A stretch of 64,000 bases of DNA from Meghimatium bilineatum (taxonomy: Eukaryota; Mollusca; Gastropoda; Stylommatophora; Philomycidae): positions 12,084,980 through 12,148,979 of the forward strand of contig CM067315.1 of assembly GCA_034231615.1 (NCBI GenBank), given 5' to 3'. Made by a program: the position numbers and the translations under genes. Every line of letters begins with the position of its first letter. The stretch's first letter is position 1. Of this stretch, positions 3,733-45,357 are shown piece by piece. The notes below the pieces were generated by a model. The model searched no databases and was not told the DNA's origin. It saw only the letters and a program-made list of their open reading frames with translations.

Positions 3733-3922
3733 ATGATGTCTTTCTTCAATTGGACAGTGCTGCACAATGTCGCAGTGTTCATTGCCTGGACGGTCACGTC
3801 ATTCTTGTGTCACTTCTGCGGCAAAGCTTTCCTGTTGACTGTCTCGGAGATGTGGCTGACCAATAGCGATGACTTCTTGAGGAATCTTTGGTTTGCTGCA
3901 GGTTTAACTTGCGTGCAGATAG
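3733..3922 (+). CDS. Transporter exon 1 (copy A)
   Basis: Encodes residues 1-63 plus the first base of codon 64, including the first membrane segment (VAVFIAWTVTSFLCHFCG). The acceptor AG is at 3729-3730 and the donor GTAAAC at 3923. It ends in phase 1. Compared with copy B there is a silent TCG/TCA difference in the SEMW region. Confidence 0.8.
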
Positions 3923-6900
3923 GTAAACGATTAATATTACTGTTAATAATGTAGTAGATCCCTGTATGACATATTACAGTTGATAATGTAGTAGATCCCT
4001 GTATGACATATTACAGTTGATAATGTAGTAGATCCTTGTATGACATATTACAGTTAATAATGTCCCACTTTATCCCTCGCGAAAACTAATCTACGGCCCA
4101 GTCTAATGGTATTATTTTTCTACTTCTTCTGTGCAATGTACACTTATTACTGAAAATTAAAATATAAACTCATACTTAAACTCATGTTTTCATATAATGT
4201 GTATTTTCAATATTTTTACCAATGACTAAAAGTTGTGTACACATTTCTTATAGAATAGTACAACACTCGGCTTATACATGTACTAAATTTGTGTGTTGTG
4301 TAGGAGGGGATTACGACCTCTATCTATCGAGGCACTACACTTTAAACCTAAGACAGGAGTCTATCACAAACTAAAGACTTTTGTTACATTTCTTACACAA
4401 GTCGAGAAGTATCGTACTCGGCGTATACAATATTCGGCTTATACACGAGAATAATATATTGCAATTCTCTTCTCTCAAAGCCCTCTGCTACGTGTCCGTG
4501 GACGTGAAGCATACAAAGGAGAGCACAGGTTTCAGGACTGCCAGGTTGACTCATGTCCTAGCCACCTTCTGCACCAACCTCAGCATGACCTTCATGTTTG
4601 CATCCTCCACTTTGGCCATCAAGGTATTAGTATACGTGCATCAAGGTATTACTATAGTCCTGGACCGGACTAATATACTGTACATACTAATATACTGTAC
4701 ATACTAATATACTGTACATACGAATAAACTGTACATACTAATATACTGTACATACTAATATACTGTACATACTAATATACTGTACATACGAATAAACTGT
4801 ACATACTAATATACTTTACATACTAATATGATATATATACTAATATGATATATATATAGTATACTTACGGACATATGAAATAGTGTATACGTATCACCAT
4901 AGCACAGTATGTTTTGTTGGTCACTTCGCTGTTGTTGTTCATCCGTCAAAGCCAACGATGACCATTCAGCTCAACGGGAATGATGATGATAATGAGAACG
5001 TCTGAGGTGTGCCTGACTGTGACTAATGAGTCCTATGCGTGCCTGAATTGTCTACCACACTCTGAGCATATGTGTGTGTGTGTGGGGAGGGGAATCTGTG
5101 GGACATTGAGCAGCTCTTGCTTTCTTTCAAGCGTATTTTTATTGCGCACCTTGATGTCTGAGGTTCTCTGCAGCTGCTGCACCTCTCTTGATTCTGCGCC
5201 GCCAGTCAGATCTGTCTTGTGCATGATTCTCCCATGAATGTGTGTCTATTTTGAACTGAGACCGTGATGTCTTAAAAGTGTCTTTAAAATGCTTCGTCTG
5301 TCCTCCTGCATTGCGTTAGCCAGGTTGGAGTTCTCCATATAACAGCTTTTTTGTTACACAATTATCTGTCATGCGAACTATGTATTCTATCTAGCGTACC
5401 TTCGCCAACATTGTATGTATGCTTGCATCAACACTACCTAGCGTACCTTCGCCAACATTGTATGTATGCTTGCATCAACATTGTATGTATGCTTGCATCA
5501 ACATTGTATGTATGCTTGCATCAACATTGTATGTATGCTTGCATCAACATTGTATGTATGCTTACAGACTTAGATTTAAACAGTACATTAATGTCTGGTA
5601 TTTCATCCAACCAATGGATGGTATCTTACTAAAGCAGCTTAGGTGAAAATGGTTGAGTCTCCTAGCATTTCTATCACATACTGTCCATGTTTCACATGCC
5701 ACTAGGTATATATTATGTATTGTCTGACACAGTAATTAATCGAAAATATGACATAAAGAGTCTTGTTTTGATTGTGCTCGTAGGTCTTCTATTCTCAAAG
5801 GTCACAATTGACTCATTTCTCAATCTTTCTGAGCTTGTAACTATCCATCTATAATCGTTCTGTCCATCCTATTTATCTATCTTTGTGAAAGAGTGCACAC
5901 TAGTGGAGTTAGATAAACAAAATACGCCAGTGGAGGTAGATAAACAGAATACACTAGTGGAGGTAGATAAACAGAATACACAAGTGGAGGTAGATAAACA
6001 GAATACACTAGTGGAGGTAGATAAACAGAATACACAAGTGGAGGTAGATAAACAGAATACACTAGTGGAGGTAGATAAACAAAATACACTAGTGGAGTTA
6101 GATAAACAAAACACACTAGTGGAGGTAGATAAACAGAATACACTAGTGGAGGTAGATAAACAAAACACACTAGTGGAGGTAGATAAACAGAATACACAAG
6201 TGGAGGTAGATAAACAGAATACACTAGTGGAGGTAGATAAACAGAATACACTAGTGGAGGTAGATAAACAGAATACACTAGTGGAGGTAGATAAACAAAA
6301 CACACTAGTGGAGGTAGATAAACAAAACACACTAGTGGAGGTAGATAAACAAAACACACTAGTGTAGGTAGATAAACAGAATACACAAGTGGAGGTAGAT
6401 AAACAGAATACACTAGTGGAGGTAGATAAACAGAATACACTAGTGGAGGTAGATAAACAGAATACACTAGTGGAGGTAGATAAACAAAACACACTAGTGG
6501 AGGTAGATAAACAAAACACACTAGTGGAGGTAGATAAACAAAACACACTAGTGGAGGTAGATAAACAGAATACACAAGTGGAGGTAGATAAACAGAATAC
6601 ACTAGTGGAGGTAGATAAACAGAATACACTAGTGGAGGTAGATAAACAGAATACACTAGTGGAGGTAGATAAACAAAACACACTAGTGGAGGTAGATAAA
6701 CAAAACACACTAGTGGAGGTAGATAAACAGAATACACTAGTGGAGGTAGATAAACAAAACACACTAGTGGAGGTAGATAAACAGAATACACAAGTGGAGG
6801 TAGATAAACAGAATACACTAGTGGAGGTAGATAAACAGAATACACTAGTGGAGGTAGATAAACAGAATACACTAGTGGAGGTAGATAAACAGAATACACT

Positions 6901-9900
6901 AGTGGAGGTAGATAAACAAAACACACTAGTGGAGGTAGATAAACAGAATACACTAGTGGAGGTAGATAAACAGAATACACTAGTGGAGGTAGATAAACAG
7001 AATACACTAGTGGAGGTAGATAAACAAAACACATTAGAAAGTGGAGACGTATATGACACACCTTCAGAAAGAAACCTTACAATATAATCAGACATGCCCT
7101 GGACTGGAACTCACAGGGAAAGAGAAGTTGGAAAACCTATGACCACCTAGAGAAGAACATTATAGGAAGAGGCCAAATCAATTGGGTCCTTGTAGGCACA
7201 GATAACCAGAACGGGACAAAAGAAACATAGCTAAAGAGCGAGGGTTGCAACCCTATGTTCCACAGAAAAATGAAACGAAATAATAGCTATTACCCTTATA
7301 ATAATAGATATTACACTTATAATAATAGATATTACCCTTATAATAATAGATATTACCCTTATAATAATAGATATTACACTTATAATAATAGATATTACAC
7401 TTATAATAATAGATATTACCCTTATAATAATAGATATTACCCACATTATAATATATATTACCCTTATAGTAATAAATATTACCCTTATAGTAATAAATAT
7501 TACCCTTATAATAATAGATATTACCCTTATAATAATAGATATTACCCTATAATAATAGATATTACCCTTATAATAATAGATATTACCCTATAATAATAGA
7601 TATTACACTTATAATAATAGATATTACCCACATTATAATAGATATTACGCTTATAGAAATGGATAGAACCCTTATAATAATAGATATTACCTGCAACAGT
7701 ATAATGAAAAGTCTTTTCATCGTATGTGATGGTTGGTTGGTCTGGTTGTTAATATCACAAGGTGAATGGTCAAGAAAGCGCGTGATGTATTTCCGTGTTC
7801 TATTTGTGAGAGGTGTTTGGGTTGTTACTCTGTAAGTTGCAGGTGATGCAGTGACAGACGATCTGCATAAATAGTCCACATAGTTCTTTAATATAACAGA
7901 CTGACAATTGGAGTAAAAACGTTCAACTATTTAATTTCAAATAAGCGACATCAACTTCAGGCACAAATAGTACCAATAAACTGTGGTCTAAATTCTCATA
8001 GACAATAGCAGCAATAATAATAATATACGTTTCATGGACAGCATCCAACTTCAAGTAATATTACCAATTTACAGTGGTCTATATTGTCATAGACAACGGC
8101 AGCAGTAATGGTAGTATTACGTTTCATAGATAGACGACATCAAATTCAAGTAATAGTACCAATTAGCAGTGGTCTATATTCTCATATTGGTGGTCAGCCT
8201 GAAAATCGCTGACAATAAATTCATTCACTGTAATGCTTGAACGATAAGTAAACTCCACGTATTAAACTCCAATCGCTGACAATAAATACATTCAGTGTAA
8301 TCCTTGAACCATAAGTAAACTCCAACGTATTAAACTCCAATCGCTGACAATAAATACATTCAGTGTAGTCCTTGAACAATAAGTAAACTCCACGTATTAA
8401 ACTCCAATCGCTGACAATAAATACATTCAGTGTAGTCCTTGAACAATAAGTAAACTCCACGTATTAAACTCCAATCGCTGACAATAAATACATTCAGTGT
8501 AGTCCTTGAACAAAAGTAAACTCCACGTATTAAACTCCAATCGCTGACAATAAATTCATTCAGTGTAGTCCTTGAACAATAAGTAAACTCCAACGTAATT
8601 ATAGTCAGCTTGAAAATTCCTGACAATAAATACATTTAGTATAATTCCGGTCACACAGACTACAGCACTCTGCCTTCTTAGCTCTGACTCAAACTTAGCT
8701 GCTCAAAACTAAACCCACAACTAAAACTCAACTGACCAAAAACTAATCTAGACTGCCCATCACTAAAACTTCATAACTCAAACTGACCACAACTAAAACT
8801 GTCCGTTACTAAAGCTGACCAAAAAACTAACCGTGTGCAAAAAAACTGAACTGTCCATTCTCGCTCAAACAACCAACTTTTCGCTTACTCAATCGCTCGC
8901 AACAAACACACCGTCTCGGTACGAACACACTATGACTTAACTAGTAATTGAAGTGCTTAATAGTGCTGGTAGAGTGAATAGGGGGGGGGGGAGTAGGTAT
9001 GTAGGGGGAGACAATGGTGCAATCATTGCAGATCAGACTACAGGAGGACGAACGAACAGTAGCCTGGTGTCTGATACTGTCACATACCCACATAATATAT
9101 ATATATATATATATATATATAACCCATACAATAATATATATATATAACCGACATAATATAAACATATTACATTACTCCATCTAATTAAAAGATATATTAC
9201 ACCATATAATAAAAAGATACCACATTATCCTATACAACATTACCATCACTACTACCACCACCACTTTCGTCATCATCATCATCTACGTTATCATTACCAC
9301 CTCTACAACCATCATCATCACCACCACCACTTTCGTAATCATCATTTACGTTATCACTACCACAACTACCACCATCATCATCACTATCACCACCACCACC
9401 TTCGTCATCATCATCATCTACGTTACCACTACCACCACCACATCCATCAGCATCATCACCTACGTCATTACTACCACCACTATCACCACCATCATCATCA
9501 TGATCATCATACATATACCTAAGAGAGAGAGAGAGAGAGAGAGAGAGAATAAATAATTGAAAGAAAATGAAATGATATTAGACTAATCTACAGTGAGCTA
9601 TAGAGAAGGAGCGACAACTCACTAGTAAACATCCGATTATCGGAGGCCTTTCTTGACCTAACTACAACAAAACTTTACAACACAACATTATTTCGTGTCA
9701 TTACGAGAGGCTGCTTCGTTCTTTTCATTGAATGGTAACACGTGATCAGCTTCTCTCATTGACACGTAATATGGTAGTGAATGGAGTATTACTTTTATGT
9801 CAAAAATAGTTGCACAAAAAGTCATCTGGTGAGCAAATGTTTATATTTAGTTGTATCACCTTCTCTATAATTTGCTTTGACTGAAAATAAATATACGTTT

Positions 9901-12900
9901 TAAATTAATAAGAGCTGTTTATCTGCTTTATTTTTATTCCTTTAACAATTGAATCGTTTATTTGATTGTGTTGTTGCTGTCTCTTACGTCACCAGCTGAT
10001 GGAGCCAATCTCAAGCGCTGTTACACAGTTCTTCGTCCATCGTACAACAGTGTCTCCACTGACAGTTTTAAGCTTGCCTATAATTGTAGGAGGAGCAATA
10101 ACTTTTTCTGGAAATCCACTTTCTGATATGAAACTGTCACTAGGTTTTGGTGCCGCCTTTGCCTCCAACTTTATCCTTGCATTAAGGTTTGTTATTGGTT
10201 ACTTGTGAAGTGCGAATGTGAGCTTGTGTGATACATAGTTATTGGTTACTTGTGAAGTGCGAATGTGAGCTTGTGTGATACATAGTTATTGGTTACTTGT
10301 GAAGTGCGAATGTGAGCTTGTGTGATACATAGTTATTAGTTACTTGTGAAGTGCGAATGTGAGCTTGTGTGATACATAGTTATTGGTTACTTGTGAAGTG
10401 CGAATGTGAGCTTGTGTGATACATAGTTATTGGGTGTACTCAATTATGAACATAATGGGGAGTTAGATGCAGGTACAAAAACAATGTTTAAAAATTAAAA
10501 GAAACGGAAGTAATAGCTGAATATTGGACAAGATGGACATTTTGTCAGGATCTATGCTCCGCGGGTAGTGAAAGTGACTAGATAGATATAATTAATCATC
10601 ATCCACAAAGCTTACACGTTCGTCATAACGCACGCACTTAACTAGCTGGAATCGCTAGCATATTCCCATGCGTGTATATTAAGTGACTCAATTACTAATT
10701 CAAACAGAAAAGTTTCAGTGTATGCCAAGTCATCCAATGAAGGAAAGATTCCAAAATCTAGCAATGGGACGACTGAAAAGGAGCAGCTTTATCCATCAAG
10801 CTAAACGACTCCGTAGACAACTTACAGACCTACCTGAAGTTGGCAGCCCCTTAAGGTCTGTACCAGAGCAAACCCCGTGGAGTGAAAGCCATGGAATGCC
10901 AATATACATTCAGACCCATGTGAAAGGAATACTAAGCGAGGACGAACAGAACAGTGTGCAGCGAATGACAATCACCCTCAGTTTCCTGGATGAGGAATAT
11001 CCACAAGATATATGGGTCAGAGTGTACACAGATGGGTCAGCACAGAATGCTGTGAGGAATGGAGGTGCAGGTGTATATATAGAATATCCACACAAGCCTA
11101 GAGATACAATCAGAACACCCACAGGAAAATTCTGCAATAATTATGATGCAGAAATCCAGGCAATTAGTGTGGCAGCTAAAAAACTGCTGAACTCCAACTC
11201 TGACCTACAGCCTGTGGTATTCCTGACAGATGCAAGGTCAGTGCTTCAAGCTCTCCAGTCTGGAAAACTAACAGACTTAAAAAAACTACTTAGTGAATTG
11301 TCTTACCAGTATAGGGTAACCATGCAGTGGATACCCTCTCACTGTGGAATACCAGGAAATGAAAAAGCAGACCAACTGGCTAAGGAAGGTGCTGCCGAAG
11401 ACCAACCAGATATACCAATCACCTACCATCAGAAAAAACAGATGATAAAGTCAATAAGAAAGCCACAAACACCAACACAAGATGACTATCACAATATGAA
11501 CAGATCAGAACAAGTTATAATTCTACGTCTCAGAACAGGACACAACCGACTCCGCAGTCACATGTATACAAAGTTCAAGATTGGCAACACAGCCATGTGT
11601 ACATGTGGACAGGCAGCACAGAGTGCCAAACATATACTTCAAGAGTGTTCTGAGCATGAAACGCTGAGGCAGACATATTGGCCAGAGGAAACAACACTGG
11701 AATCAAAGCTCTATGGGACACTGTATGAACTACAAAAGACAGTGAGTTTTATTAAGGAGACAGAATTACAGATATAGACATGTTTCAAGTGAACGAAAGA
11801 AGAAGAAGAAGAAGAAGTGACTCAATGAATATGATTCAGAAAGTCAAAACAGGTGATGTACGTAGGGATGGGTGGAATCACTAGAGAGAGCTAACATGCA
11901 GGCATCATTACGTACATTCACGCTTATCTTTGTCCCCGGACACGCGGGCGTGGAGAGAAACGAGCGGACCGACCAATTAGCTAGACGTGCTATCACAACA
12001 GATGGTCAGAATATGAACCGAGCAGACATACTCATTGCTCTTCGTGAGTCCTCACGATAAGATGAGTTTGAGATGAATGAGCACGAGTCAATATCGAGAA
12101 TGCGCGAATTTAGAGTGAGTATGAACTTGGCCTGTAGAAAACACCTGACAAAGATTTCAAACAGAGCAGTGAACCAACATAGAACCGGAACCATCAGCCG
12201 TTATATCCTGAGAGATTTACTGAGGCCGAGATCTGAGCACCTATGGACGTGTCCTGTGTGCGAAGAGGCTAATCAACATACCTAGTACGACATATGCTAT
12301 TTTAGAATTCTTCCCTTTTCTGATTTTGTCTGATGATAATAGTGTGAGTTCTTTGAGATAAATGTTAATGTATTTGACAGGAATTTGGCCATCAAGAAAA
12401 TGAATCCTGGGGATCAAAATCCACTCAAGATACAGATGCAGAAATCCGAATTTCTGGCAGTCTCACCTGTTCTGTTATGTGCCTTAATTATTTTGATGTA
12501 CCTGGAGAAGGTAGATTCCCTTCCACCAAGGACAGTCTACGCAGTCATCATGTGTCTCTTGTCAGGTGTTTTTCATGTAACATACTCCTACCTGTCAACT
12601 GGCGTAGTTCTCACTCAGGTAAATCGTATGTATAGAATTATGAAACTGTGATTTAACAAATGATCAGGGAGCTTTCTTTGAAATTGTATACAGAACTCTT
12701 TGAACTTTAACTCTCGGAAATTGTATACAGAACTCTTTGAACTTTAACTCTCTGAAGATGAAGCTCGCTAAACATTAAAAGGCAAGATGTCTGTGAGATG
12801 TAAAACTCTAACATCATAATTACGCTGTTCTTCTGACAATTCGTGAATAGTTAATAGGATAGAGAAACAGATCCTGACTCAAGAATAAGACGGAAAACTA

Positions 12901-15634
12901 AGACTGACTCAAGAATAAGACGGATTACTAAGACTGACTCACGAAAACGACGGAAAACTAAGACTGACTCAATAATAAGACGGATTACTAAGACTGACTC
13001 AAGAATAAGACGGATTACTAAGACTGACTCAAGAATAAAACGGATTACTAAGACGCTGCACCGAAAGGTACACTTCCAGCAAGACGTAGCTGTCAAAGCT
13101 GAAAAGCACAGTGCCATGAAAAGACTAAATATGTCAGATCAAAGGTAATATCAGATGACTGTAAACTTCAATACTTGGATGGCTGTGACTATGTCGATGG
13201 CGACACAAACAACGGCAAAAAAATGTCAAGCACGTTTGAGTTTAGTTCGTTTTCAGGTTGGTTACCAGCATGTAGTACGGGGACGAGTTCTGTCGTATGG
13301 TTAGCCGACTAGCCTATTGGTAATATGGTTACAGACTTCCACGGTTCTTTGAAGTGGTAAAACAACTGAACGTATTATTTACCATCGCCGAAGTCGGATG
13401 TGTCAGATCATTCGTGTGAGTAAAATGCCGTCATGACGTATTTCCATTCTCTAAACTACGTCCTGCTGGAAATCTAGTAGGACTATTGTCCTGCTACAAC
13501 AGCGATCCAGTGGTAGTTTAGTAACATTGTCTCGCTGCAGAGGGAACCAGTGGTAGTTTAGTAACATTGTCTCGCTGCAGAGGGATCCAGTGGTAGTTTA
13601 GTAACATTGTCTCGCTGCAGAGGGATCCAGTGGTAGTTTAGTAACATTGTCTCGCTGCAGAGGGATCCAGTGGTAGTTTAGTAACATTGTCTCGCTGCAG
13701 AGGGATCCAGTGGTAGTTTAGTAACATTGTCTCGCTGCAGAGGGATCCAGTGGTAGTTTAGTAACATTGTCTCGCTGCAGAGGGAACCAGTGGTAGTTTA
13801 GTAACATTGTCTCGCTGCAGAGGGATCCAGTGGTAGTTTAGTAACATTGTCTCGCTGCAGAGGGATCCAGTGGTAGTTTAGTAACATTGTCTCGCTGCAG
13901 AGGGATCCAGTGGTAGTTTAGTAACATTGTCTCGCTGCAGAGGGATCCAGTGGTAGTTTAGTAACATTGTCTCGCTGCAGAGGGATCCAGTGGTAGTTTA
14001 GTAACATTGTCTCGCTGCAGAGGGATCCAGTGGTAGTTTAGTAACATTGTCTCGCTGCAGAGGGATCCAGTGGTAGTTTAGTAACATTGTCTCGCTGCAG
14101 AGGGATCCAGTGGTAGTTTAGTAACATTGTCTCGCTGCAGAGGGATCCAGTGGTAGTTTAGTAACATTGTCTCGCTGCAGAGGGATCCAGTGGTAGTTTA
14201 GTAACATTGTCTCGCTGCAGAGGGATCCAGTGGTAGTTTAGTAACATTGTCTCGCTGCAGAGGGATCCAGTGGTAGTTTAGTAACATTGTCTCGCTGCAG
14301 AGGGATCCAGTGGTAGTTTAGTAACATTGTCTCGCTGCAGAGGGATCCAGTGGTAGTTTAGTAACATTGTCTCGCTGCAGAGGGATCCAGTGGTAGTTTA
14401 GTAACATTGTCTCGCTGCAGAGGGATCCAGTGGGAGTTTAGTAGGGAAGCAACAATATGATCTGCAATACATGTCATAAAAAACAACTAAGGAATTTTGC
14501 AGTTTAGTCGATTTTTTCACACATAAATCAGTCGCCTAAAATTGATACATAAATCGGATGTATTAGACCAAGCAGCGCAGATATCGCAGCTAAATGTAAA
14601 AATAGTGACAGACACGAAGTATACCGCTCTTCGGAATGTATCATGTCAACCAGAAGTAGTTTGAGGAGTTTCGAGAGAAGAAGAAGAAGAATATGTCTCG
14701 GTGGATATACAGAGTCGCAGTGACCCGAAGCCATGATGATGATTCTCATGTCGAAATGAGCAGATATCGCGGTCAAGCTGTAAACCATGACACTGCGCAT
14801 ACCTTTCCCTGTAGTACTTAAAGCTAACATGTAAGAGCTTTCATACGAACAGAAGAAGAATATCGCTTATAGGAGATCTTATTTTTCTCTGTTTATAGGA
14901 GATTGTATTTTTTCTCTGTTTATAGGAGATCTTTTTTTTTCTCTGTTTATCGCCCGTGTGTTGCCGGGCCTGAAGGGGAGCAAAGAAATAGCAACACTGT
15001 TTACCTTCCACGCATGTCGTAAAAGGCGACTAAGGAGGTTATGGGATGGAGTTGGCTGTCCCATCCCATATAGGTCAGTGACCCAAAGCCATGCTGAAGT
15101 CGGATGTGTCTGGTCGAAAGGCGCAGATATCGCAGCAATGATGTAAACCATGACACAACGCATTCCGTTCTCCGGACTACATCCTGCTAATCTGCAGGAG
15201 TTTGAGAACGAACGCAAAGAAGAAGTCTTTGTTTATATGCGTTCTTATTTTCTCTCTGTTTATATGCGTTCTTATTTTCTCTCTGTTTATATGCGTTCTT
15301 ATTTTCTCTCTGTTTATATGCGTTCTTATTTTCTCTCTGTTTATATGCGTTCTTATTTTCTCTCTGTTTATATGCGTTCTTATTTTCTCTCTGTTTATAT
15401 GCGTTCTTATTTTCTCTCTGTTTATATTTCAAGCTGTCTGTTGTTAGTCATGCTGTGATCAACATTACAAAGCGGGTTCTGGTTGTGCTACTGTTATACC
15501 TCGTAGGACGACGTGTTGCCACAGCCTACAACTTCTTGGGCTTGGTGATATGCACTGTTGGACTTTTCCTCTACGCATGGGATAAGCAGATGTCAAGGAA
15601 TAGAAAGTCTCTGATTTATGGAGGTAATTTCTAG
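3733..15634 (+). CDS. SLC35/TPT-family transporter, five exons (copy A)
   Basis: A Golgi/ER-type small-molecule transporter of the triose-phosphate translocator (TPT) fold in the drug/metabolite transporter superfamily. Exons 3733-3922, 4481-4623, 9996-10186, 12381-12618 and 15434-15634 have GT-AG borders and compatible phases (1, 0, 2, 0), and join into 963 bases, 320 residues plus stop, a normal family length. About ten hydrophobic segments are visible (roughly 10-36, 49-70, 88-110, 112-127, 133-150, 158-175, 198-216, 227-248, 263-279, 283-302). Family hallmarks: ASNFILALRNLAIKK (168-181) and SHAVINITKRV (259-269). In plastid TPTs a Lys-Arg pair at the latter place binds the phosphate of the substrate; here it is K267-R268. 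Start: ATG 3733 or 3736 just after a splice acceptor, with 3718 possible if unspliced. An AATAAA signal follows the stop by 51 bases. The substrate is unknown; the neighbouring pyruvyl transferase makes phosphoenolpyruvate an attractive candidate, with nucleotide sugar as the alternative. Confidence 0.85.
3949..4062. repeat. 37-bp tandem repeat, three units
   Basis: Three near-identical units containing AGATCCCTGTATGACATATT lie just inside intron 1. The counterpart in copy B is 29880-29992. Confidence 0.9.
4481..4623 (+). CDS. Transporter exon 2 (copy A)
   Basis: Acceptor CTCTCAAAG ends at 4480 and donor GTATTA starts at 4624. It completes the split Ala64 codon and encodes up to Lys111 (SSTLAIK), the start of the helix that continues into exon 3. 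It ends in phase 0. Confidence 0.85.
4668..4850. repeat. 17-bp minisatellite (TACTAATATACTGTACA)
   Basis: About ten units start shortly after the exon 2 donor. Copy B has about 28 units (30611-31110). Confidence 0.95.
4914..5240 (-). pseudogene. LINE ORF C-terminus and 3' UTR fragment
   Basis: The minus strand reads a Cys-rich finger (CSECGRQFRH) in the same position as CPNCPRTFTARIGPFSH at the end of the LINE at 32483-36480, followed by a 3' end with GACGGATGAACAAC, close to GATGGACGAACAAC of that LINE. It is a truncated, decayed relative. It is shared by both copies (31205-31530). Confidence 0.65.
5405..5565. repeat. 23-bp minisatellite (CAACATTGTATGTATGCTTG)
   Basis: About six units here and seven in copy B (31648-31805). 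The MYACIN-type reading frames are artefacts. Confidence 0.95.
5897..7045. repeat. 27-bp minisatellite, about 42 units
   Basis: The unit contains GGAGGTAGATAAACAGAAT followed by ACACTAGT. Because 27 is a multiple of 3, both strands stay open (LVEVDKQNT on plus, CLSTSTSVF on minus), which gives long false open frames up to about 400 codons. Variants AAAACAC and CAAGTG are interspersed without strict order. Copy B has about 13 plus 9 units split by a LINE. Confidence 0.97.
7046..7280. other. Unique intron 2 sequence between two arrays
   Basis: No coding signal. It is conserved in copy B at 36746-36975. Confidence 0.5.
7281..7690. repeat. 21-bp minisatellite (TTATAATAATAGATATTACC)
   Basis: About 19 units with length variants. 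The copy B counterpart is 36975-37425 with a different variant order. Confidence 0.95.
7691..8204. other. Unique intron 2 sequence
   Basis: Nothing recognisable apart from loose repetition of ATAGTACCAAT-type phrases (7960-8170). Confidence 0.4.
8205..8610. repeat. 67-bp tandem repeat
   Basis: About six units, each with AATCGCTGACAATAAATACA and TCAGTGTAGTCCTTGAACAA. Copy B has about seven units (37929-38395). Confidence 0.95.
8660..8900. repeat. Degenerate ACTAAAACT-rich repeat
   Basis: Short imperfect phrases of AACTAAAACTGACC. No gene seen. Confidence 0.6.
9093..9549. repeat. Microsatellite cluster: (TA)n, (CAT/CAC)n, (GA)n
   Basis: TA runs are at 9093-9150, a trinucleotide CAT/CAC block at 9230-9513 and a GA run at 9518-9548. 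The Asp/Gly- and His-rich frames over it are artefacts. Copy B lacks the TA part and its flank. Confidence 0.95.
9996..10186 (+). CDS. Transporter exon 3 (copy A)
   Basis: Acceptor ACGTCACCAG ends at 9995 and donor GTTTGT starts at 10187. It encodes residues 112-174 and two bases of Arg175 (LMEPISSAV ... ASNFILAL). Codon 150 is TCT (Ser) here but TGT (Cys) in copy B. A 47-bp tandem array begins a few bases past the donor. Confidence 0.85.
10189..10433. repeat. 47-bp minisatellite next to the exon 3 donor
   Basis: About five units with GTTATTGGTTACTTGTGAAG start two bases after the donor GT. Copy B has two units. The units do not repeat the donor itself, so no decoy splice site is created. 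Confidence 0.95.
10434..10681. other. Unique intron 3 sequence
   Basis: No feature seen. It matches copy B at 39941-40191. Confidence 0.4.
10693..11815 (+). mobile_element. 5'-truncated RNase H LINE, only in copy A
   Basis: A recent non-LTR retrotransposon tail flanked by an 11-bp target duplication AGTGACTCAAT (10682-10692 and 11816-11826); copy B has the empty site at about 40192. The open frame runs unbroken to a stop at 11777. It contains a complete-looking RNase H domain: YTDGSA (Asp), YDAEIQA (Glu), LTDARS (Asp), WIPSHCG and GNEKADQLA (Asp), the expected D-E-D-D set. After that comes the tail found in such elements, RTGHNRLRSHMY plus a Cys-His segment (CTCGQ...KHILQEC). The reverse transcriptase and endonuclease are missing through 5' truncation. 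The 3' end is a (GAA)n tail, not poly(A). Confidence 0.9.
11840..12286 (+). pseudogene. Older LINE RNase H fragment (copy A)
   Basis: Reads FVPGHAGVERNERTDQLARRA, the last RNase H motif, then MNRADILIALRE and a Cys-containing end WTCPVCEE. One in-frame stop at 12058-12060 interrupts it. It belongs to a different LINE subfamily from the adjacent 10693-11815 insertion. The same fragment with the same stop is at 40216-40662. Confidence 0.75.
12381..12618 (+). CDS. Transporter exon 4 (copy A)
   Basis: Acceptor TTTGACAG ends at 12380 and donor GTAAAT starts at 12619. It completes Arg175 (AG+G) and encodes residues 176-254, including the NLAIKK motif and two membrane segments. It ends in phase 0. 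Confidence 0.85.
12676..12750. repeat. 37-bp repeat, two units
   Basis: Two copies with GAAATTGTATACAGAACTCT; copy B has three (41056-41168). Confidence 0.9.
12868..13055. repeat. 30-bp minisatellite (CTAAGACTGACTCAAGAATA)
   Basis: About six units here versus about fourteen in copy B (41287-41706). Two variant endings (GGAAAA and GGATTA) alternate. Confidence 0.95.
13056..13400. other. Unique intron 4 sequence
   Basis: No feature seen. It is near-identical to 41707-42075. Confidence 0.4.
13401..14455 (+). repeat. SINE 3' region expanded into a 40-bp minisatellite
   Basis: Bases 13401-13507 match the 3' half of the local SINE (TTCTCTAAACTACGTCCTGC ... CTATTGTCCTGCTACAACAG). From 13508 a 40-bp unit (GATCCAGTGGTAGTTTAGTA plus ACATTGTCTCGCTGCAGAGG) repeats about 23 times almost without variation, and the SINE-like end GATCCAGTGGGAGTTTAGTA closes it. 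Copy B has about two units (42160-42250). Confidence 0.9.
14456..14864 (+). mobile_element. Decayed SINE copy
   Basis: Matches the local SINE in pieces: CATGTCATAAAA...CAACTAAGGA near 14471, GCGCAGATATCGCAGC near 14575, and a second partial copy with CGGTCAAGCTGTAAACCATG at 14770-14800, with GAA-rich tails near 14680 and 14850. There is no clear target duplication. Confidence 0.55.
14865..14950. repeat. T-rich tandem repeat left of the SINE
   Basis: Three units of TATAGGAGATC plus T/CT runs and CTCTGTTTAT. These look like diverged relatives of the 28-bp units on the other side of the SINE, which suggests that the SINE landed inside one array. Confidence 0.7.
14951..15225 (+). mobile_element. 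GAA-tailed SINE (copy A)
   Basis: A 275-bp copy that starts CGCCCGTGTGTTGCCGGG and ends GAACGCAAAGAAGAAG. The flanking duplication is TCTCTGTTTAT (14940-14950) and TCTTTGTTTAT (15226-15236). I see no convincing A/B box, so the head type is unresolved. Confidence 0.8.
15226..15430. repeat. 28-bp T-rich minisatellite upstream of exon 5
   Basis: About seven units with CTCTCTGTTTATATGCGTTC followed by TTATTTT. The last unit runs into the exon 5 splice acceptor and forms its pyrimidine tract. Copy B has about 3.5 units (43065-43160). Confidence 0.95.
15434..15634 (+). CDS. Transporter exon 5, terminal (copy A)
   Basis: The acceptor TTTCAAG ends at 15433 and its pyrimidine tract is supplied by a T-rich minisatellite. 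It encodes residues 255-320 with SHAVINITKRV and the last two helices, then a TAG stop. An internal GGAG|GTAATT could act as a donor at 15624, but the nearby AATAAA favours this being the last exon. Confidence 0.8.
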   Translation: MSVVSHAVINITKRVLVVLLLYLVGRRVATAYNFLGLVICTVGLFLYAWDKQMSRNRKSLIYGGNF

Positions 15635-15685
15635 TATAACCCAACACTTGTAGACAGTGTTTAAAAGGATTTTTGCTGTGTGACT

Positions 15686-15691
15686 AATAAA
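15686..15691 (+). promoter_or_regulatory. AATAAA polyadenylation signal
   Basis: Fifty-one bases after the exon 5 stop. It is conserved in copy B (43417-43422). Confidence 0.6.
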
Positions 15692-15715
15692 TAGCTATTT
15701 TCACTCTTTCAATTT

Positions 15716-16180
15716 AATGACACCTACCATCAAATGTCACGCAAGGAACAAACCATCATCTTCAGACTACAAACTGGCCACAACAGACTGAGAATTCACA
15801 TGTTCCGAAAACTTAAGATTGGCGAGACAAACCTGTGCAACTGTGGACTGAGCCCAGAAACTGCAGAACACATTCTGCATGCGTCAACTCTACCAAGAAG
15901 AGAGGGAGAAAATATGGCTTACTGAGACAGCACTGCTTCCAGACTTGAGGGGTTCCATGGATGACCTGAAGCGAATCACACAATTCATTGAAGCTATTGG
16001 TGCTGTAACCGGATATCTGACTGAAGCTATTGGTGCTGTATCCGGATATCTGACTGAAGCTATTGGTGCTGTAACCTGATATCTGACTGAAGCTATTGGT
16101 GCTGTATCCGGATATCTGACTGAAGCTATTGGTGCTGTATCCGGATATCTGACTGAAGAACGATGATGAAGAAGAAGAAG
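15716..16180 (+). mobile_element. LINE 3' end with internal 33-bp array (copy A)
   Basis: A 13-bp target duplication, ACTCTTTCAATTT, flanks it (15703-15715 and 16181-16193). The coding part (about 15734-15925) reads RLQTGHNRLRIHMFRKLKIG and NCGLSPETAEHILH, the same protein tail as the LINE at 10693-11815, then shifts frame. Near its 3' end a 33-bp unit (AAGCTATTGGTGCTGTAACC plus GATATCTGACTG) is repeated about five times, and the element ends GAACGATGATGAAGAAGAAGAAG. In copy B the same array has about 49 units. Confidence 0.85.
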
Positions 16181-16296
16181 ACTCTTTCAATTTGAGCTGG
16201 TAAAAGAAGATTTTTCAGATCGTGTATACTAATAGTCAAACAGCAATGTCATTGTTCGTGCCTGCAACACTGACAATCAATTTAAGAAAAGTTAAC

Positions 16297-16420
16297 GCAT
16301 TGCATTTATTAATGCCGTAGGACTGTGAGATGTTAGCGATCTCACATTTTAGTGGCTCTGCTATATGAGGGTGGTAACCATCTCCTCTTCCTCGCAGGCT
16401 TTATTTCCCAGTTAATCCGA
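16297..16420 (-). mobile_element. SINE tail fragment with stem-loop
   Basis: Shares with 1453-1560 the phrases CATTTATTAATGCCGTAG and the stem-loop TGTGAGAT-GTTAGCG-ATCTCACA (16324-16346). The tRNA-like head is not present. Confidence 0.6.
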
Positions 16421-17041
16421 GTAGTTATTAATGAGCAACTGGATTCCTGACGCAGAAACTGTCTCCCGCTACGTCGGTATATAGACCTGCTGCGTTCTGC
16501 TGAAAAAATATAGCTCGAAGTAACAAGGATCTAGGGACATGGCGGTGAGCCCCAGTAGTCGCGATATAGGACTCGGGAACACGATCGGCCCGAAACGCCC
16601 GCTACCGACCTGTGTACTCGATGAGGATATCGTTCCAATTCGGCCAATTACCAATTAAATTATTGTAATTTGAAACATTTTTCTAAATTAAACAAAACTT
16701 TAAAATCATGTAGTTGTTTGCCTACTTTTTTTATGCAAACATTTTTTTAAGTATGAGTAGATTGATTTTATTTGTCCTAATAATTAAGCAGGGTGGGTGC
16801 ATGTATTCTTTATAGTTGTTGACAAAGAAATTGAAAATATTGGTACAAAATGATTGAATAATAATTTATGGGCAACCCTTATCGGTTTTTTTTTTGGTTT
16901 GCTCTTTAGTACTCATTGTCTGTTTTGACTTTTTATTAATGGTTGGGTTTTAAAACCCCCTTTTCCACTTTTCTACGATCTATACTGTTGGTGTTTTAAA
17001 GTGTGTTTTAGATCTACATTTTCTGCCATTACTTTTATCAG
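16421..17041. other. Upstream region of the pyruvyl transferase gene
   Basis: No coding signal. The part from 16680 is T-rich, and CTTTTATCAG at 17032-17041 is a plausible splice acceptor for a 5' UTR intron ending 29 bases before the ATG. No TATA box can be assigned. Confidence 0.4.
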
Positions 17042-17070
17042 ATTTTAACTGAATTGATATTATCTTCCAC

Positions 17071-18534
17071 ATGTCTCTGCAAGAATGGCTGAACAAGATC
17101 TACAGAACTCCCTTGTCCTGTTTGGTAATCACTATCTGTTGCCTGTCGTCCATCTGGTGTGCAATTCAAGTATTTCCGATCACGCAGGTCCACGGCTATA
17201 GAAGCATATCTGTTATTCGACGATTCTTCGATTTGAAACAGTCTATCGGTTTTGCAAAGAGGTCGTCTATATTTGACAATGAGAACGGGCAATATTTTAC
17301 ACCTGACAATTTCTTCGACCTCACGTTTGGCCCTGACTCATCTAAACGTCCAGCAGACTGGCAATTGCAACCAAATTTACAAGGTTATCTGGCTAACGAG
17401 AGCGACGAAATCACATCATTTTTATCAACTCGCCTCCTAGATAATCCCGTACAATCAAATTACTTATCTCAGAAACTTAGAACATCATTGGAAGTTATTA
17501 GAGAAGCTCAGAGAATTCATTATAATATGTTTAGTGATGTGATTGGTCAGTTTAAATATTGTATGCTATTGGATACATCAAATACTGAAAATAAAGGAGA
17601 TCCGGCGATTACAATTGGAGAGATATATTTCATAACACGTATGGGCATTGAAATAATTTACTATTGCAACGAAGTTACTTGGAAGACTGAGGCATTGGAC
17701 ACGGCTGCTAGCATTGCAAGAACTTACTCTCCGACAGAACTTGTTATATTTCTGCATGGCGGTGGCAATGTTAATGCATATTACCGCCATGATGATATCC
17801 GAGGAAAAGTTTTTACAAAATTTCAAGGATATCAGTTTTTCATATTCCCGCAAAGTATTTTAGTAAGAAATGAAATAACAACCCATTTCCAAGAATGTAT
17901 CAGAAATTATTGTTGTAATGAAAACTTGACTTTTGTTTTTAGAGACCACCAATCATATTCCGAGGCCAAGAAATACTTCAACGGCACTTCACGCCTGCTA
18001 GTCGCTCCTGATATGGCTTTTCATATTGGACCAGTCAAAAGATTTCTTTCCCCTGTTTTTGACATACTCTGGATTAAAAGAAACGACACAGAACGTGCTG
18101 GGTACAACAAAATACCAGAACATCCGCCTCATCTAAGACTCCACGTTTCGGACTGGTTAACGTTCCCAACTCCCCAAGCTGGTACTAATTTGGAGAAATC
18201 ATTTTATGCAACGGTTATGGGTCTTTTCTTCACCCAGCGTGGCAGAGTTGTTATTACTGACAGATTTCACGGCCACGTCTTTGCTACATTGCTCAACATC
18301 CCGCATGTACTTCTAGACAACCCGGCTAAAAAGTTATCCTCTTACCACAATACATGGACGAAAGGGTTGGAGAACACACGTCTCACTGACAACCCTAAAA
18401 CAGCCTTGACGTTGGCTCTTGAATTATTGGACATTTATGGAGAGCGCCAAATACCACCCCGAGTTCCGTTTCTCAATGTTAGTGAATATTTTCACAATAT
18501 TAACTATAGTTTACCAGAAACTAGCTATCCCTGA
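17071..18534 (+). CDS. Polysaccharide pyruvyl transferase-like protein (copy A)
   Basis: Predicted type II Golgi-membrane enzyme that would transfer the pyruvyl group of phosphoenolpyruvate onto a sugar as a ketal. The 487-residue frame has no intron; an in-frame TGA at 17050 supports ATG 17071 as the start. Residues 14-35 form a single membrane anchor after a short, basic N-terminus, followed by a stem and a lumenal domain with several N-glycosylation sequons (109, 285, 304, 338, 469, 478). Family motifs in order: NKGDPAI (174-180), FLHGGGNV (227-234), FPQS (259-262), RDHQSYSEAKK (291-301), APDMAFHIG (312-320), VVITDRFHGHVFATLLNIP (393-411) and KKLSSYHNTW (420-429). This order matches bacterial pyruvyl transferases (PF04230) and yeast Pvg1. 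Such genes are rare in animals, and the lack of introns is compatible with transfer from microbes or with retroposition. Acceptor sugar unknown. Confidence 0.88.
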   Translation: MSLQEWLNKIYRTPLSCLVITICCLSSIWCAIQVFPITQVHGYRSISVIRRFFDLKQSIGFAKRSSIFDNENGQYFTPDNFFDLTFGPDSSKRPADWQLQPNLQGYLANESDEITSFLSTRLLDNPVQSNYLSQKLRTSLEVIREAQRIHYNMFSDVIGQFKYCMLLDTSNTENKGDPAITIGEIYFITRMGIEIIYYCNEVTWKTEALDTAASIARTYSPTELVIFLHGGGNVNAYYRHDDIRGKVFTKFQGYQFFIFPQSILVRNEITTHFQECIRNYCCNENLTFVFRDHQSYSEAKKYFNGTSRLLVAPDMAFHIGPVKRFLSPVFDILWIKRNDTERAGYNKIPEHPPHLRLHVSDWLTFPTPQAGTNLEKSFYATVMGLFFTQRGRVVITDRFHGHVFATLLNIPHVLLDNPAKKLSSYHNTWTKGLENTRLTDNPKTALTLALELLDIYGERQIPPRVPFLNVSEYFHNINYSLPETSYP

Positions 18535-22846: not shown

Positions 22847-22983
22847 CGATAATGCTTGTGTTTTCTATGTACAGTAAATTGGAGGGTGGGGGGATGGGGG
22901 GGGGGTTAATAGTTTTTAAACGTAGAATACGCGAATTCTCAACACTCTGCATTGATTAAAGACTCGTTCTCCTACTTAGACAG

Positions 22984-24450
22984 CTCTATCGCCAGAAACA
23001 TTCTTATCCATTGCCAGGTCTATCGTCAGAAACACTTATCCATTGCCAGGTCTATCGTCAGAAACACTTATCCATTGCCAGGTCTATCGTCAGAAACACT
23101 TATCCATTGCCAGGTCTATCGTCAGAAACACTTATCCATTGCCAGGTCTATCGTCAGAAACACTTATCCATTGCCAGGTCTATCGTCAGAAACACTTATC
23201 CATTGCCAGGTCTATCGTCAGAAACACTTATCCATTGCCAGGTCTATCGTCAGAAACACTTATCCATTGCCAGGTCTATCGTCAGAAACACTTATCCATT
23301 GCCAGGTCTATCGTCAGAAACACTTATCCATTGCCAGGTCTATCGTCAGAAACACTTATCCATTGCCAGGTCTATCGTCAGAAACACTTATCCATTGCCA
23401 GGTCTATCGTCAGAAACACTTATCCATTGCCAGGTCTATCGTCAGAAACACTTATCCATTGCCAGGTCTATCGTCAGAAACACTTATCCATTGCCAGGTC
23501 TATCGTCAGAAACACTTATCCATTGCCAGGTCTATCGTCAGAAACACTTATCCATTGCCAGGTCTATCGTCAGAAACACTTATCCATTGCCAGGTCTATC
23601 GTCAGAAACACTTATCCATTGCCAGGTCTATCGTCAGAAACACTTATCCATTGCCAGGTCTATCGTCAGAAACACTTATCCATTGCCAGGTCTATCGTCA
23701 GAAACACTTATCCATTGCCAGGTCTATCGTCAGAAACACTTATCCATTGCCAGGTCTATCGTCAGAAACACTTATCCATTGCCAGGTCTATCGTCAGAAA
23801 CACTTATCCATTGCCAGGTCTATCGTCAGAAACACTTATCCATTGCCAGGTCTATCGTCAGAAACACTTATCCATTGCCAGGTCTATCGTCAGAAACACT
23901 TATCCATTGCCAGGTCTATCGTCAGAAACACTTATCCATTGCCAGGTCTATCGTCAGAAACACTTATCCATTGCCAGGTATATCGTCAGAAACACTTATC
24001 CATTGCCAGGTCTATCGTCAGAAACACTTATCCATTGCCAGGTCTATCGTCAGAAACACTTATCCATTGCCAGGTCTATCGTCAGAAACACTTATCCATT
24101 GCCAGGTCTATCGTCAGAAACACTTATCCATTGCCAGGTCTATCGTCAGAAACACTTATCCATTGCCAGGTCTATCGTCAGAAACACTTATCCATTGCCA
24201 GGTCTATCGTCAGAAACACTTATCCATTGCCAGGTCTATCGTCAGAAACACTTATCCATTGCCAGGTCTATCGTCAGAAACACTTATCCATTGCCAGGTC
24301 TATCGTCAGAAACACTTATCCATTGCCAGGTCTATCGTCAGAAACACTTATCCATTGCCAGGTCTATCGTCAGAAACACTTATCCATTGCCAGGTCTATC
24401 GTCAGAAACACTTATCCATTGCCAGGTCTATCGTCAGAAACATTCTTATC
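22984..24450. repeat. 32-bp minisatellite, about 45 units (copy A)
   Basis: The unit joins TATCGTCAGAAACACTTATC and CATTGCCAGGTC. Homogeneity is extreme: the one clear variant is TATATCG for TCTATCG near 23979. Since 32 is not a multiple of 3 the reading frame cycles, and all three plus frames are open for about 500 codons. These are not genes. Copy B has about 34 units (51723-52805). Confidence 0.98.
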
Positions 24451-24487
24451 GATAGACAGGTCTATCATCCATTTGTATACATAGCCT

Positions 24488-24979: not shown

Positions 24980-25079
24980 NNNNNNNNNNNNNNNNNNNNN
25001 NNNNNNNNNNNNNNNNNNNNNNNNNNNNNNNNNNNNNNNNNNNNNNNNNNNNNNNNNNNNNNNNNNNNNNNNNNNNNNN
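24980..25079. other. Assembly gap, 100 Ns
   Basis: Exactly 100 N characters, a conventional placeholder for a gap of unknown size. Confidence 1.
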
Positions 25080-29663: not shown

Positions 29664-29853
29664 ATGATGTCTTTCTTCAATTGGACAGTGCTGCACAATG
29701 TCGCAGTGTTCATTGCCTGGACGGTCACGTCATTCTTGTGTCACTTCTGCGGCAAAGCTTTCCTGTTGACTGTCTCAGAGATGTGGCTGACCAATAGCGA
29801 TGACTTCTTGAGGAATCTTTGGTTTGCTGCAGGTTTAACTTGCGTGCAGATAG
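29664..29853 (+). CDS. Transporter exon 1 (copy B)
   Basis: Donor GTAAAC at 29854. The protein part is identical to copy A. Confidence 0.8.
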
Positions 29854-43446: not shown

Positions 43447-45357
43447 AATGACACCTACCATCAAATGTCACGCAAGGAACAAACCATCATCTTCAGACTA
43501 CAAACTGGCCACAACAGACTGAGAATTCACATGTTCCGAAAACTTAAGATTGGCGAGACAGACCTTTGCAACTGTGGACTGAGCCCAGAAACTGCAGAAC
43601 ACATTCTGCATGCGTCAACTCTACCAAGAAAAGAGGGAGAAAATATGGTTTACTGAGACAGTACTGCTTCCAGACTTGAGGGGTTCCATGTATGACCTGA
43701 AGCGAATCACACAATTCATTGAAGCTATTGGTGCTGTACCCGGATATCTGACTGAAGCTATTGGTGCTGTAACCTGATATCTGACTGAAGCTATTGGTGC
43801 TGTAACCTGATATCAACTGAAGCTATTGGTGCTGTAACCTGATATCTGACTGAAGCTATTGGTGCTGTAACCTGATATCTGACTGAAGCTATTGGTGCTG
43901 TAACCTGATATCTGACTGAAGCTATTGGTGCTGTAACCTGATATCAACTGAAGCTATTGGTGCTGTAACCTGATATCTGACTGAAGCTATTGGTGCTGTA
44001 ACCTGATATCTGACTGAAGCTATTGGTGCTGTAACCTGATGTCAACTGAAGCTATTGGTGCTGTAACCTGATATCTGACTGAAGCTATTGGTGCTGTAAC
44101 CTGATATCTGACTGAAGCTATTGGTGCTGTAACCTGATATCTGACTGAAGCTATTGGTGCTGTAACCTGATATCTGACTGAAGCTATTGGTGCTGTAACC
44201 TGATATCTGACTGAAGCTATTGGTGCTGTAACCTGATATCTGACTGAAGCTATTGGTGCTGTAACCTGATATCTGACTGAAGCTATTGGTGCTGTAACCT
44301 GATATCAACTGAAGCTATTGGTGCTGTAACCTGATATCTGACTGAAGCTATTGGTGCTGTAACCTGATATCAACTGAAGCTATTGGTGATGTAACCTGAT
44401 ATCTGACTGACGCTATTGGTGCTGTAACCGAATATCTGACTGAAGCTATTGGTGCTGTAACCTGATATCTGACTGAAGCTATTGGTGCTGTAACCTGATA
44501 TCTGACTGAAGCTATTGGTGCTGTAACCTGATATCTGACTGAAGCTATTGGTGCTGTAACCGGATATCTGACTGAAGCTATTGGTGCTGTAACCTGATAT
44601 CTGACTGAAGCTATTGGTGCTGTAACCTGATATCTGACTGAAGCTATTGGTGCTGTAACCTGATATCTGACTGAAGCTATTGGTGCTGTAACCGGATATC
44701 TGACTGAAGCTATTGGTGCTGTAACCTGATATCTGACTGAAGCTATTAGTGCTGTAACCTGATATCTGACTGAAGCTATTGGTGCTGTAACCTGATATCT
44801 GACTGAAGCTATTGGTGCTGTAACCTGATATCTGACTGAAGCTATTGGTGCTGTAACCTGATATCTGACTGAAGCTATTGGTGCTGTAACCTGATATCTG
44901 ACTGAAGCTATTGGTACTGTATCCGGATATCTGACTGAAGCTATTGGTGCTGTATCCGGATATCTGACTGAAGCTATTGGTGCTGTAACCGGATATCTGA
45001 CTGAAGCTATTGGTGCTGTAACCTGATATCTGACTGAAGCTATTGGTGCTGTAACCTGATATCAACTGAAGCTATTGATGCTGTAACCTGATATCTGACT
45101 GAAGCTATTGGTGCTGTAACCTGATATCTGACTGAAGCTATTGGTGCTGTAACCTGATATCTGACTGAAGCTATTGGTGCTGTAACCTGATATCTGACTG
45201 AAGCTATTGGTGCTGTAACCTGATATCTGACTGAAGCTATTGGTGCTGTAACCTGATATCTGACTGAAGCTATTGGTGCTGTAACCTGATATCTGACTGA
45301 AGCTATTGGTGCTGTAACCTGATATCTGACTGAAGAACGATGATGAAGAAGAAGAAG
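43447..45357 (+). mobile_element. LINE 3' end with 49-unit 33-bp array (copy B)
   Basis: Flanked by ACTCTTTCAATTT at 43434-43446 and 45358-45370. The coding tail is at 43465-43656. The 33-bp array fills 43720-45330, about ten times longer than in copy A; some units lack three bases (GATATCAACTG), which breaks the minus-strand frame into several false open frames. Confidence 0.88.

Follow-up and report, generated by a model that had tools for sequence, protein, structure and literature searches.

The closest described relative of the enzyme half of the gene family analysed here is S. pombe Pvg1 (PDB 5ax7), a Golgi galactose-specific 4,6-ketal pyruvyl transferase with which it shares the PF04230 family, the catalytic residues and an N-terminal membrane helix. 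Pvg1 is a separate protein, whereas in most of the mollusc copies the PF04230 domain is read as the final exon of a gene for a transporter. The sole solved relative found for the carrier half, an algal triose-phosphate/phosphate translocator (5y78/5y79, E 3.5e-8) that we take to be a plastid protein, has no enzyme domain, unlike the mollusc unit. In S. pombe, phosphoenolpyruvate (PEP) for the lumenal pyruvyl transferase is described as coming from the Golgi PEP transporters Pet1p and Pet2p (PMC4872226), which are separate from Pvg1 and have the role inferred for the mollusc carrier. Nucleotide-sugar transporters of the mammalian Golgi are described as complexed with glycosyltransferases, so that donor supply is coupled to transfer (PMC9368800); as presented there, these complexes are non-covalent, whereas the mollusc coupling would be covalent and its donor PEP. 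The products that such an animal enzyme would make are represented by pyruvylated glycolipids of the sea hare Aplysia (1989 work) and a pyruvylated proteoglycan of the sponge Microciona, for which the relevant parts of the sources give the chemistry and name no animal enzyme gene (PMC6801904, PMC6994554). The Aplysia glycolipid is described as 3,4-Pyr-Gal, whereas Pvg1 makes 4,6-ketals. Among the literature matches listed, which covered few subscription journals, none dealt with an animal pyruvyl transferase gene or a fused TPT-pyruvyl transferase.

We analysed a 64,000-nucleotide stretch of the Meghimatium bilineatum genome (the window), for which a TPT-family transporter (3733-15634) and a Pvg1-like pyruvyl transferase (17071-18534) had been predicted on the same strand. 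Both were recovered in each of two copies, and the predicted spacing of 1.4 kb agrees with the 1.44 kb between the transporter stop and the transferase ATG at 17071. The features, in window coordinates, are as follows.

3733-3922, plus strand: copy 1 exon 1, transporter part, ATG at 3733, ends in phase 1 (spliced model; tblastn)
4481-4623, plus strand: copy 1 exon 2, ends in phase 0, bears K111, which matches Lys204 in the algal TPT (spliced model; alignment)
9996-10186, plus strand: copy 1 exon 3, ends in phase 2 (spliced model)
12381-12618, plus strand: copy 1 exon 4, ends in phase 0, bears Y243, the presumed Tyr339 counterpart (spliced model; alignment)
15434-15623, plus strand: copy 1 exon 5, closing the transporter part, with K267-R268 and the donor GAG/GTAATT in phase 1 (model; splice-site scan)
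15632-15634, plus strand: TAG taken in the original prediction as the transporter stop; behind the donor, probably intronic
15686-15691, plus strand: AATAAA behind the donor, a possible signal for a transporter-only transcript
17042, plus strand: where an alternative exon would begin, behind the AG that scored highest within the 150 nt scan, tacttttatcag/ATTT (splice-site scan)
17071-18534, plus strand: 487-aa ORF with a membrane helix, ATG at 17071, the separate-gene reading of the copy 1 transferase
17084-18534, plus strand: copy 1 exon 6, membrane helix 11 and pyruvyl transferase (PF04230)
24980-25079, strandless: assembly gap of 100 N adjoining copy 1 on its right
29664-29853, plus strand: copy 2 exon 1
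30424-30566, plus strand: copy 2 exon 2
39647-39837, plus strand: copy 2 exon 3, with one Ser-to-Cys change
40757-40994, plus strand: copy 2 exon 4
43165-43354, plus strand: copy 2 exon 5
46264-47714, plus strand: copy 2 exon 6, pyruvyl transferase

The transporter, predicted as a 320-residue protein, does come to exactly 320 aa when read from its ATG (3733) as far as the TAG at 15632-15634, but its last few codons lie behind the splice donor and are probably intron. Conservation in both copies had also been stressed; the pair is indeed present twice, but this is little informative, since dS between the copies is 0.006-0.009 and the edge of copy 1 abuts the 100-N gap, for which reasons they may be two haplotypes or the product of a very recent duplication. 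Their transferase proteins are identical (2 synonymous nucleotide differences), and their transporters differ at one residue.

Both family assignments held. The window carrier scored 69.7 bits against PF03151 in the first, unrefined splice and 67.1 in the refined fused model (cut-off 30), and in a Pfam listing at E up to 10 it matched only TPT, over the cut-off, and EamA, below it. No nucleotide-sugar carrier family appeared in that listing, and a nucleotide-sugar transporter was rejected as the identity of the carrier; within the reach of the listing, the grouping with nucleotide-sugar carriers named in the original prediction as counting against it did not occur. The 487-aa ORF reached 62.4 bits against PF04230 (cut-off 25.3) and 14 against the CsaB model TIGR03609 (equivalog cut-off 213.1 bits), and S. 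pombe Pvg1 aligned to its residues 154-451 (E 9e-35). A membrane helix is predicted in this ORF, in line with the membrane-anchored enzyme originally proposed. A helix followed by 4-9 N-glycosylation sequons, as a type II Golgi enzyme would have, is present in each of the ten copies, yet none of the ten distinct predicted exons has a Met before the helix.

Across the whole 1.6 Gb genome, PF04230 gave 11 matches over the cut-off, eight on C4, two in the window (C18) and one on C19. On C4, C18 and C19, three places unlinked to one another, ten of these 11 transferase exons follow directly on a same-strand TPT gene, which supports the claim that transporter and transferase form a unit; the eleventh (C4_4b) is preceded by another transferase exon and has no carrier of its own. 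Matches to the window transporter fall almost entirely in these pair places (42 of 44), and we grouped the 42 into ten genes, each upstream of a same-strand transferase exon. Exon 3 of the C19 carrier is missing from the assembly, a 100-N gap lying in its place. The TPT family as a whole gave at least 24 matches, at least eight in the pair places and at least 16, six of them over the cut-off, at nine other places; none of the nine adjoins a transferase or lies on C4 or C19, and the single one on C18 lies some 11 Mb from the window pair. The C4 pairs, like the two window copies, stand side by side and resemble local duplicates, so the C4 pairs are not independent of one another. We consider it probable that the pairs belong to one mollusc gene family, whose unit is a TPT-type carrier joined with a Pvg1-like ketal-pyruvyl transferase, both ancestrally and in the majority of copies as one gene for a single polypeptide of ~770-800 residues that would supply its own enzyme.

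Whether the two halves are one protein depends on the junction between exon 5 and exon 6, predicted as a phase 1 intron of 1.1-5.9 kb. Donors are in phase 1 in all ten TPT last exons (judged by eye), and a phase 1 acceptor is present at all 11 transferase exons (in a listing that took in phase 1 alone). Because this first version used a phase-1 filter, the analysis was rerun blind to phase, with approximate matrices from general knowledge and over the 150 nt around each predicted site; the predicted site scored highest for 8/10 donors and 9/11 acceptors, and the phase argument was weakened for the window's copies. Six-exon models without internal stops are complete for C4_3 (772 aa), C4_4 (768 aa), C4_5 (766 aa) and the window (800 aa), and both Pfam domains are found in the fused window and C4_3 models. 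A single frame is open across exons 5 and 6 in these four models and at the C19 junction, the window having a stronger competing acceptor. Between C4_3 and C4_5, the 150 bases before the donor align with 0 gaps and the 100 after it with 8 gap runs, and between C4_3 and C4_4 the gap runs number 0 before and 4 after; the comparison did not discriminate for C4_6/C4_7, C18a/C18b or C18a/C19, nor at the acceptor side. The donors of C4_3, C4_4 and C4_5 are weak (TTG/GTAAAA), and a different GT scores higher in C4_3 and C4_5. Given the phase 1 donors and acceptors and predicted exons that have no Met ahead of the helix, the C4 and C19 pairs are most likely one gene each, with the splicing predicted from genomic sequence.

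The two-gene reading, which was taken first, holds that a stand-alone PEP carrier and a type II pyruvyl transferase cooperate as neighbours with their own starts and stops, like fission yeast Pet1/Pet2 and Pvg1. It suits the window's copies, where the carrier is followed by a stop and an AATAAA (+62 behind the donor) and the transferase is preceded by an ATG and a strong acceptor; the latter, at 17042, scores 8.5 vs 4.4 for the fusion acceptor and, joined to exon 5, gives an in-frame stop, which argues against fusion there. With a further AATAAA at +65 in C19, a carrier-only form is possible at both places, and five of the ten distinct transferase ORFs (window, C4_1, C4_2, C4_5 and C4_6) have an in-frame ATG upstream of both the predicted acceptor and the helix. 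In the other five, the stretch from the preceding stop to the helix holds none. C19 and C4_7 carry a Met 3-4 residues into the helix, where a shortened anchor could begin, but in C4_3, C4_4a and C4_4b the first in-frame ATG comes at residue 93 or later, well past the helix, and for these copies the two-gene reading fails. Against it also stand the polyadenylation-type motifs of the C4 copies scanned (5 of 7), in which the first AATAAA/ATTAAA is at least 431 nt behind the donor or absent from 600 nt, and the carrier 'stops', which fall at differing distances behind the donor (+8 to +80, 8 of 10 measured). Two separate genes are an unlikely reading, though one far from negligible. Of the original prediction of two adjacent genes, the pairing stands, but outside the window the pair is most likely one gene encoding one polypeptide. 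Fusion of the window's own copies (800 aa) is possible but ambiguous, because the stronger acceptor adds a stop codon and both an ATG and an AATAAA are present; these copies might yield one protein, or splicing might give the carrier alone and the transferase as a form of its own.

In the preferred reading, a fused carrier and transferase, exons 1-5 would encode the carrier and exon 6, beyond the phase 1 intron, the transferase, preceded by a short run of basic residues and one more membrane helix. TPT-class carriers have ten helices with both ends cytosolic, and helix 11 would bring the enzyme into the lumen. Located, as we infer, in the Golgi membrane, the carrier half would import PEP, probably against phosphate, and the lumenal enzyme would set pyruvate as a cyclic ketal on two hydroxyls of a terminal sugar acceptor, most likely galactose. 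Phosphate released by the transferase would leave through the same carrier, such that the protein would feed its own enzyme and clear its own by-product.

The residues of both halves bear on this scheme, in which PEP is the putative cargo. In the algal TPT, phosphate is bound by Lys204, Lys362 and Arg363 (PMC11661312), the counterparts of which in the window carrier are K111, K267 and R268. The KR pair to which the original prediction pointed is real but of no diagnostic value: the same Lys and Lys-Arg residues occur in an ordinary TPT relative on C25, so the set is not specific for PEP. The position corresponding to Y243 of the window is presumably Tyr339 in the algal numbering, and the one that we take to be His185 is a Thr in the window. 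Counterparts of Lys204, Lys362, Arg363 and Tyr339 are present in all four aligned carrier copies. PF03151 does not separate PEP from other cargoes. In the enzyme half, the counterparts of the proposed catalytic residues of Pvg1, D106, R217 and R337 (D490, R604 and R711 of the fused window model), are invariant in all ten distinct copies. The position of Pvg1 H168, described as limiting the acceptor of that enzyme, varies among the mollusc copies (the window has H, C19 has N, and the C4 copies have I, F, V, M or K, as read from alignments). The unit could be real and yet serve another phosphate compound, or its PF04230 enzyme could use another donor or acceptor. Consistent with this are the generality of the Lys and Lys-Arg set, the score against the plastid TPT/PPT model TIGR00817, far below its cut-off (67.6 vs 317.9), and the care advised for sequence-based predictions in the pyruvyl transferase class (PMC6801904, section 5.3.2). 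Set against it are the invariant catalytic residues, the PEP-using Pvg1 as the only solved enzyme relative found and the absence of nucleotide-sugar families from the Pfam matches, and we regard a different cargo or reaction as quite improbable.

Both halves are under purifying selection, with dN/dS of 0.21-0.33 for the transporter and 0.15-0.26 for the transferase (finite dS only, excluding the two window copies, which are nearly identical). The dS of C18/C19 approaches saturation, the C19 carrier part spans no more than 142 codons, and saturation affects several further comparisons. Such selection between diverged copies rules out decayed genes. That the halves are chance neighbours spread by tandem and segmental duplication, without a functional link, would fit the adjoining C4 pairs and window copies but is barely credible, since the pair has been kept at three unlinked places despite an identity, in both halves, of only 51-55% between C18 and C19 and 32-38% between these and C4, with selection on both halves and a conserved splice phase at the junction. 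As to origin, one short-pattern scan of prokaryote genomes returned one relative, from Aureimonas (27% identity), and in a short-pattern scan of viral contigs, 21 stretches fitted the pattern, none of them a relative.

We are evenly balanced on the fullest form of the proposal, a self-feeding Golgi enzyme that would combine PEP import, glycan pyruvylation and phosphate export in one polypeptide. It would form a family of about ten members, in which recombination would have swapped enzyme halves between carrier halves and the acceptor-contact residue would have diverged, so that each member may tag a different glycan; such a protein would be a covalent transporter-transferase and would supply the enzyme that animal glycan pyruvylation has lacked. 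The exon-by-exon models provide concrete candidate genes for the pyruvate-tagged sugars of animals. If one polypeptide both imports and uses PEP, it would represent a covalent form of the transporter-transferase coupling that is described elsewhere as non-covalent complexes, and it would offer a route, besides sialic acid, for placing negative charge on animal glycans.

The original prediction of a transporter gene followed by a pyruvyl transferase gene was confirmed for both genes, which are genuine and, when read as separate genes, are located as follows:

3733 to TAG 15632-15634: window transporter, separate-gene reading, 320 aa
17071-18534: window transferase ORF, 487 aa

The transporter matches the Pfam TPT family with 69.7 bits in its first-draft splice form and 67.1 bits in the refined model (cut-off 30), and the transferase matches PF04230 with 62.4 bits (cut-off 25.3). 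Both genes also recur in window copy 2; however, dS between the two copies is 0.006-0.009 and a 100-N gap (24980-25079) terminates copy 1, so the copies may be haplotypes, and their described conservation in both copies is therefore no independent evidence. Sequence fetched upstream of the window is N throughout. The near-identical halves (1-24979 and 26277-53334) differ in insertions, and the right edge of the first adjoins the N gap, which makes a false duplication in the assembly possible. Recognized by eye, an RNase H-like ORF (10683-11777, + strand) lies in a transporter intron of copy 1, in a region where the two copies do not align, and LINE-like element ORFs (endonuclease, reverse transcriptase; 32548-35986, - strand) lie in one of copy 2. 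Long tandem arrays with a step of about 32-33 bases occupy 22981-24466, open in several frames, and 43720-45335.

Throughout the genome (1.61 Gb, 32 contigs), the PF04230 profile identified 11 places, all above cut-off: eight on contig C4 (3.110-3.330 Mb), two in the window (contig C18), and one on contig C19. The window transporter, used as a query, gave 44 exon-sized matches, of which 42 fall where PF04230 also matched (28 on C4, 10 within the window, and 4 on C19); these group into 10 transporter genes, each with a same-strand transferase exon after it. Directly behind a transporter lie 10/11 transferase exons, and the remaining one (C4_4b) has a further transferase exon ahead of it. A control search with the whole TPT family gave, with counts that are lower bounds, at least 24 matches (E up to 1), at least 8 in paired places and at least 16 at nine others; six of these nine exceed the cut-off, C4 and C19 carry none of the nine matched, and the sole member on C18 lies ~11 Mb from the window pair. 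A second, stop-ridden transporter match within the C4_2 gene (C4 3140434-3140925) is perhaps a partial exon duplication. Haemocyanin domain PF14830, a marker of molluscs, gave 50 matches in this genome, all on two contigs.

The junction between exon 5, the last of the transporter, and exon 6, encoding a membrane helix and the transferase, points to fusion. A phase-1 donor is reached in frame in all 10 transporter last exons read (two in the window, C19, C4_1 to C4_7), with the apparent transporter stop beyond it in every case (+8 to +80 in 8/10 measured), and a phase-1 acceptor lies just upstream of the helix in 11/11 transferase exons, from a list filtered for phase 1. When the phase filter was dropped and 150 nt around each site rescanned, the predicted donor had the top score in 8/10 (exceptions C4_3 and C4_5) and the predicted acceptor in 9/11 (exceptions the two window copies). 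C4_3 shows no gaps in the 150 bases before the donor against either C4_5 or C4_4, and eight and four gap runs, respectively, in the 100 bases after it; this comparison did not discriminate for C4_6/C4_7, C18a/C18b (the window copies), or C18a/C19, nor on the acceptor side. No Met precedes the helix in the 10 distinct predicted transferase exons, C19 and C4_7 having one 3-4 residues into it; in five of the 10 distinct transferase ORFs, the stretch from the last upstream stop to the helix holds no in-frame ATG, and the other five have one upstream of the predicted acceptor. Full six-exon models, built for C4_3 (772 aa), C4_4 (768), C4_5 (766), and the window (800), with C4_1, C4_2, C4_6, and C4_7 left out, are open throughout, and a GC donor closes exon 1 in all three C4 models. 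In C19, exon 3 is missing from the assembly, with a 100-N gap at its place.

A competing window acceptor at 17042 scores 8.5 vs 4.4 for the fusion acceptor; its use would extend the transporter by three codons ending in a stop codon, after which the ATG at 17071 could serve as the transferase start. AATAAA follows the donor by 62 bases in C18 and 65 in C19; a scan of C4_1 to C4_5 placed the first AATAAA or ATTAAA at 431 bases or more, or met none within 600 nt. On the evidence as a whole, we regard fusion as having good support in the C4 copies and as likely for the C19 copy; the window copies are the least clear of the set, and fusion, alternative splicing, or a split into separate genes may apply to them. 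By our rough judgement, not a computed value, predicted fusion is highly probable on C4 and slightly favored in the window.

Both halves show the same deep split of C18 and C19 from C4: C18 and C19 share 51% identity in carrier exons 4-5 and 55% in the transferase, and 32-38% with C4. Within C4, the halves of C4_2, C4_3, and C4_4 (3134179-3220789) form a mosaic, C4_3 being 95% identical to C4_4 in carrier exons 4-5 and 61% in the transferase, and 95% identical to C4_2 in the transferase and 59% in carrier exons 4-5; the simplest reading is that recombination swapped halves between neighboring copies. Excluding the near-identical window copies, dN/dS for pairs with finite dS ranged over 0.21-0.33 in the transporter and 0.15-0.26 in the transferase. 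A pair of transferase exons 97% identical to each other (C4 3219480-3220789 and 3229411 to about 3230720), with one transporter gene ahead of both and the same phase-1 acceptor, are candidate alternative last exons.

TPT transporters have ten helices, with both ends cytosolic. A hydropathy scan of the window model clearly resolved helix 11 (residues 330-348) and only partly the ten preceding it; basic residues ahead of helix 11, together with the 4-9 sequons that follow it in 10/10 copies, fit a lumenal enzyme half. The only solved relative found for the transporter was the algal TPT (5y78, E 3.5e-8), whose Tyr339 has a counterpart in the four copies aligned. So do Lys204, Lys362, and Arg363, reported to bind phosphate (PMC11661312). 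Since the Lys and Lys-Arg also occur in an ordinary TPT relative on contig C25, and the plastid TPT/PPT model fell below cut-off against the transporter, we can only infer PEP as the carrier's cargo, from the neighboring transferase and by analogy with yeast Pvg1, which depends on Pet1 and Pet2 (PMC4872226). For the transferase, the only solved relative found was fission yeast Pvg1 (5ax7, E 9e-35); counterparts of its proposed catalytic residues D106, R217, and R337 (PMC4872226) are invariant in 10/10 copies. Replacement of Pvg1 H168 is reported to widen the acceptor range (PMC4872226), and the alignments show H at this position in the window and N, I, F, V, M, or K in the other copies, which would fit different acceptors.

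Pyruvylated glycolipids of Aplysia and a pyruvylated proteoglycan of Microciona are on record (PMC6801904, PMC6994554). One review surveys pyruvyl transferases as mainly bacterial and fewer in eukaryotes, with a Pvg1-like set mostly from Proteobacteria and Firmicutes (PMC6801904); among the literature matches listed, there was no animal pyruvyl transferase gene, and one combined-term match concerned giant viruses. Golgi transporters and glycosyltransferases are described as forming non-covalent complexes (PMC9368800). The proposal that the transporter supplies PEP to the enzyme in the Golgi, made from a correct observation of both genes, is supported in part and is extended here to a repeated and selected mollusc family of carrier-transferase genes, mostly fused by predicted splicing, with putative cargo, location, and product.
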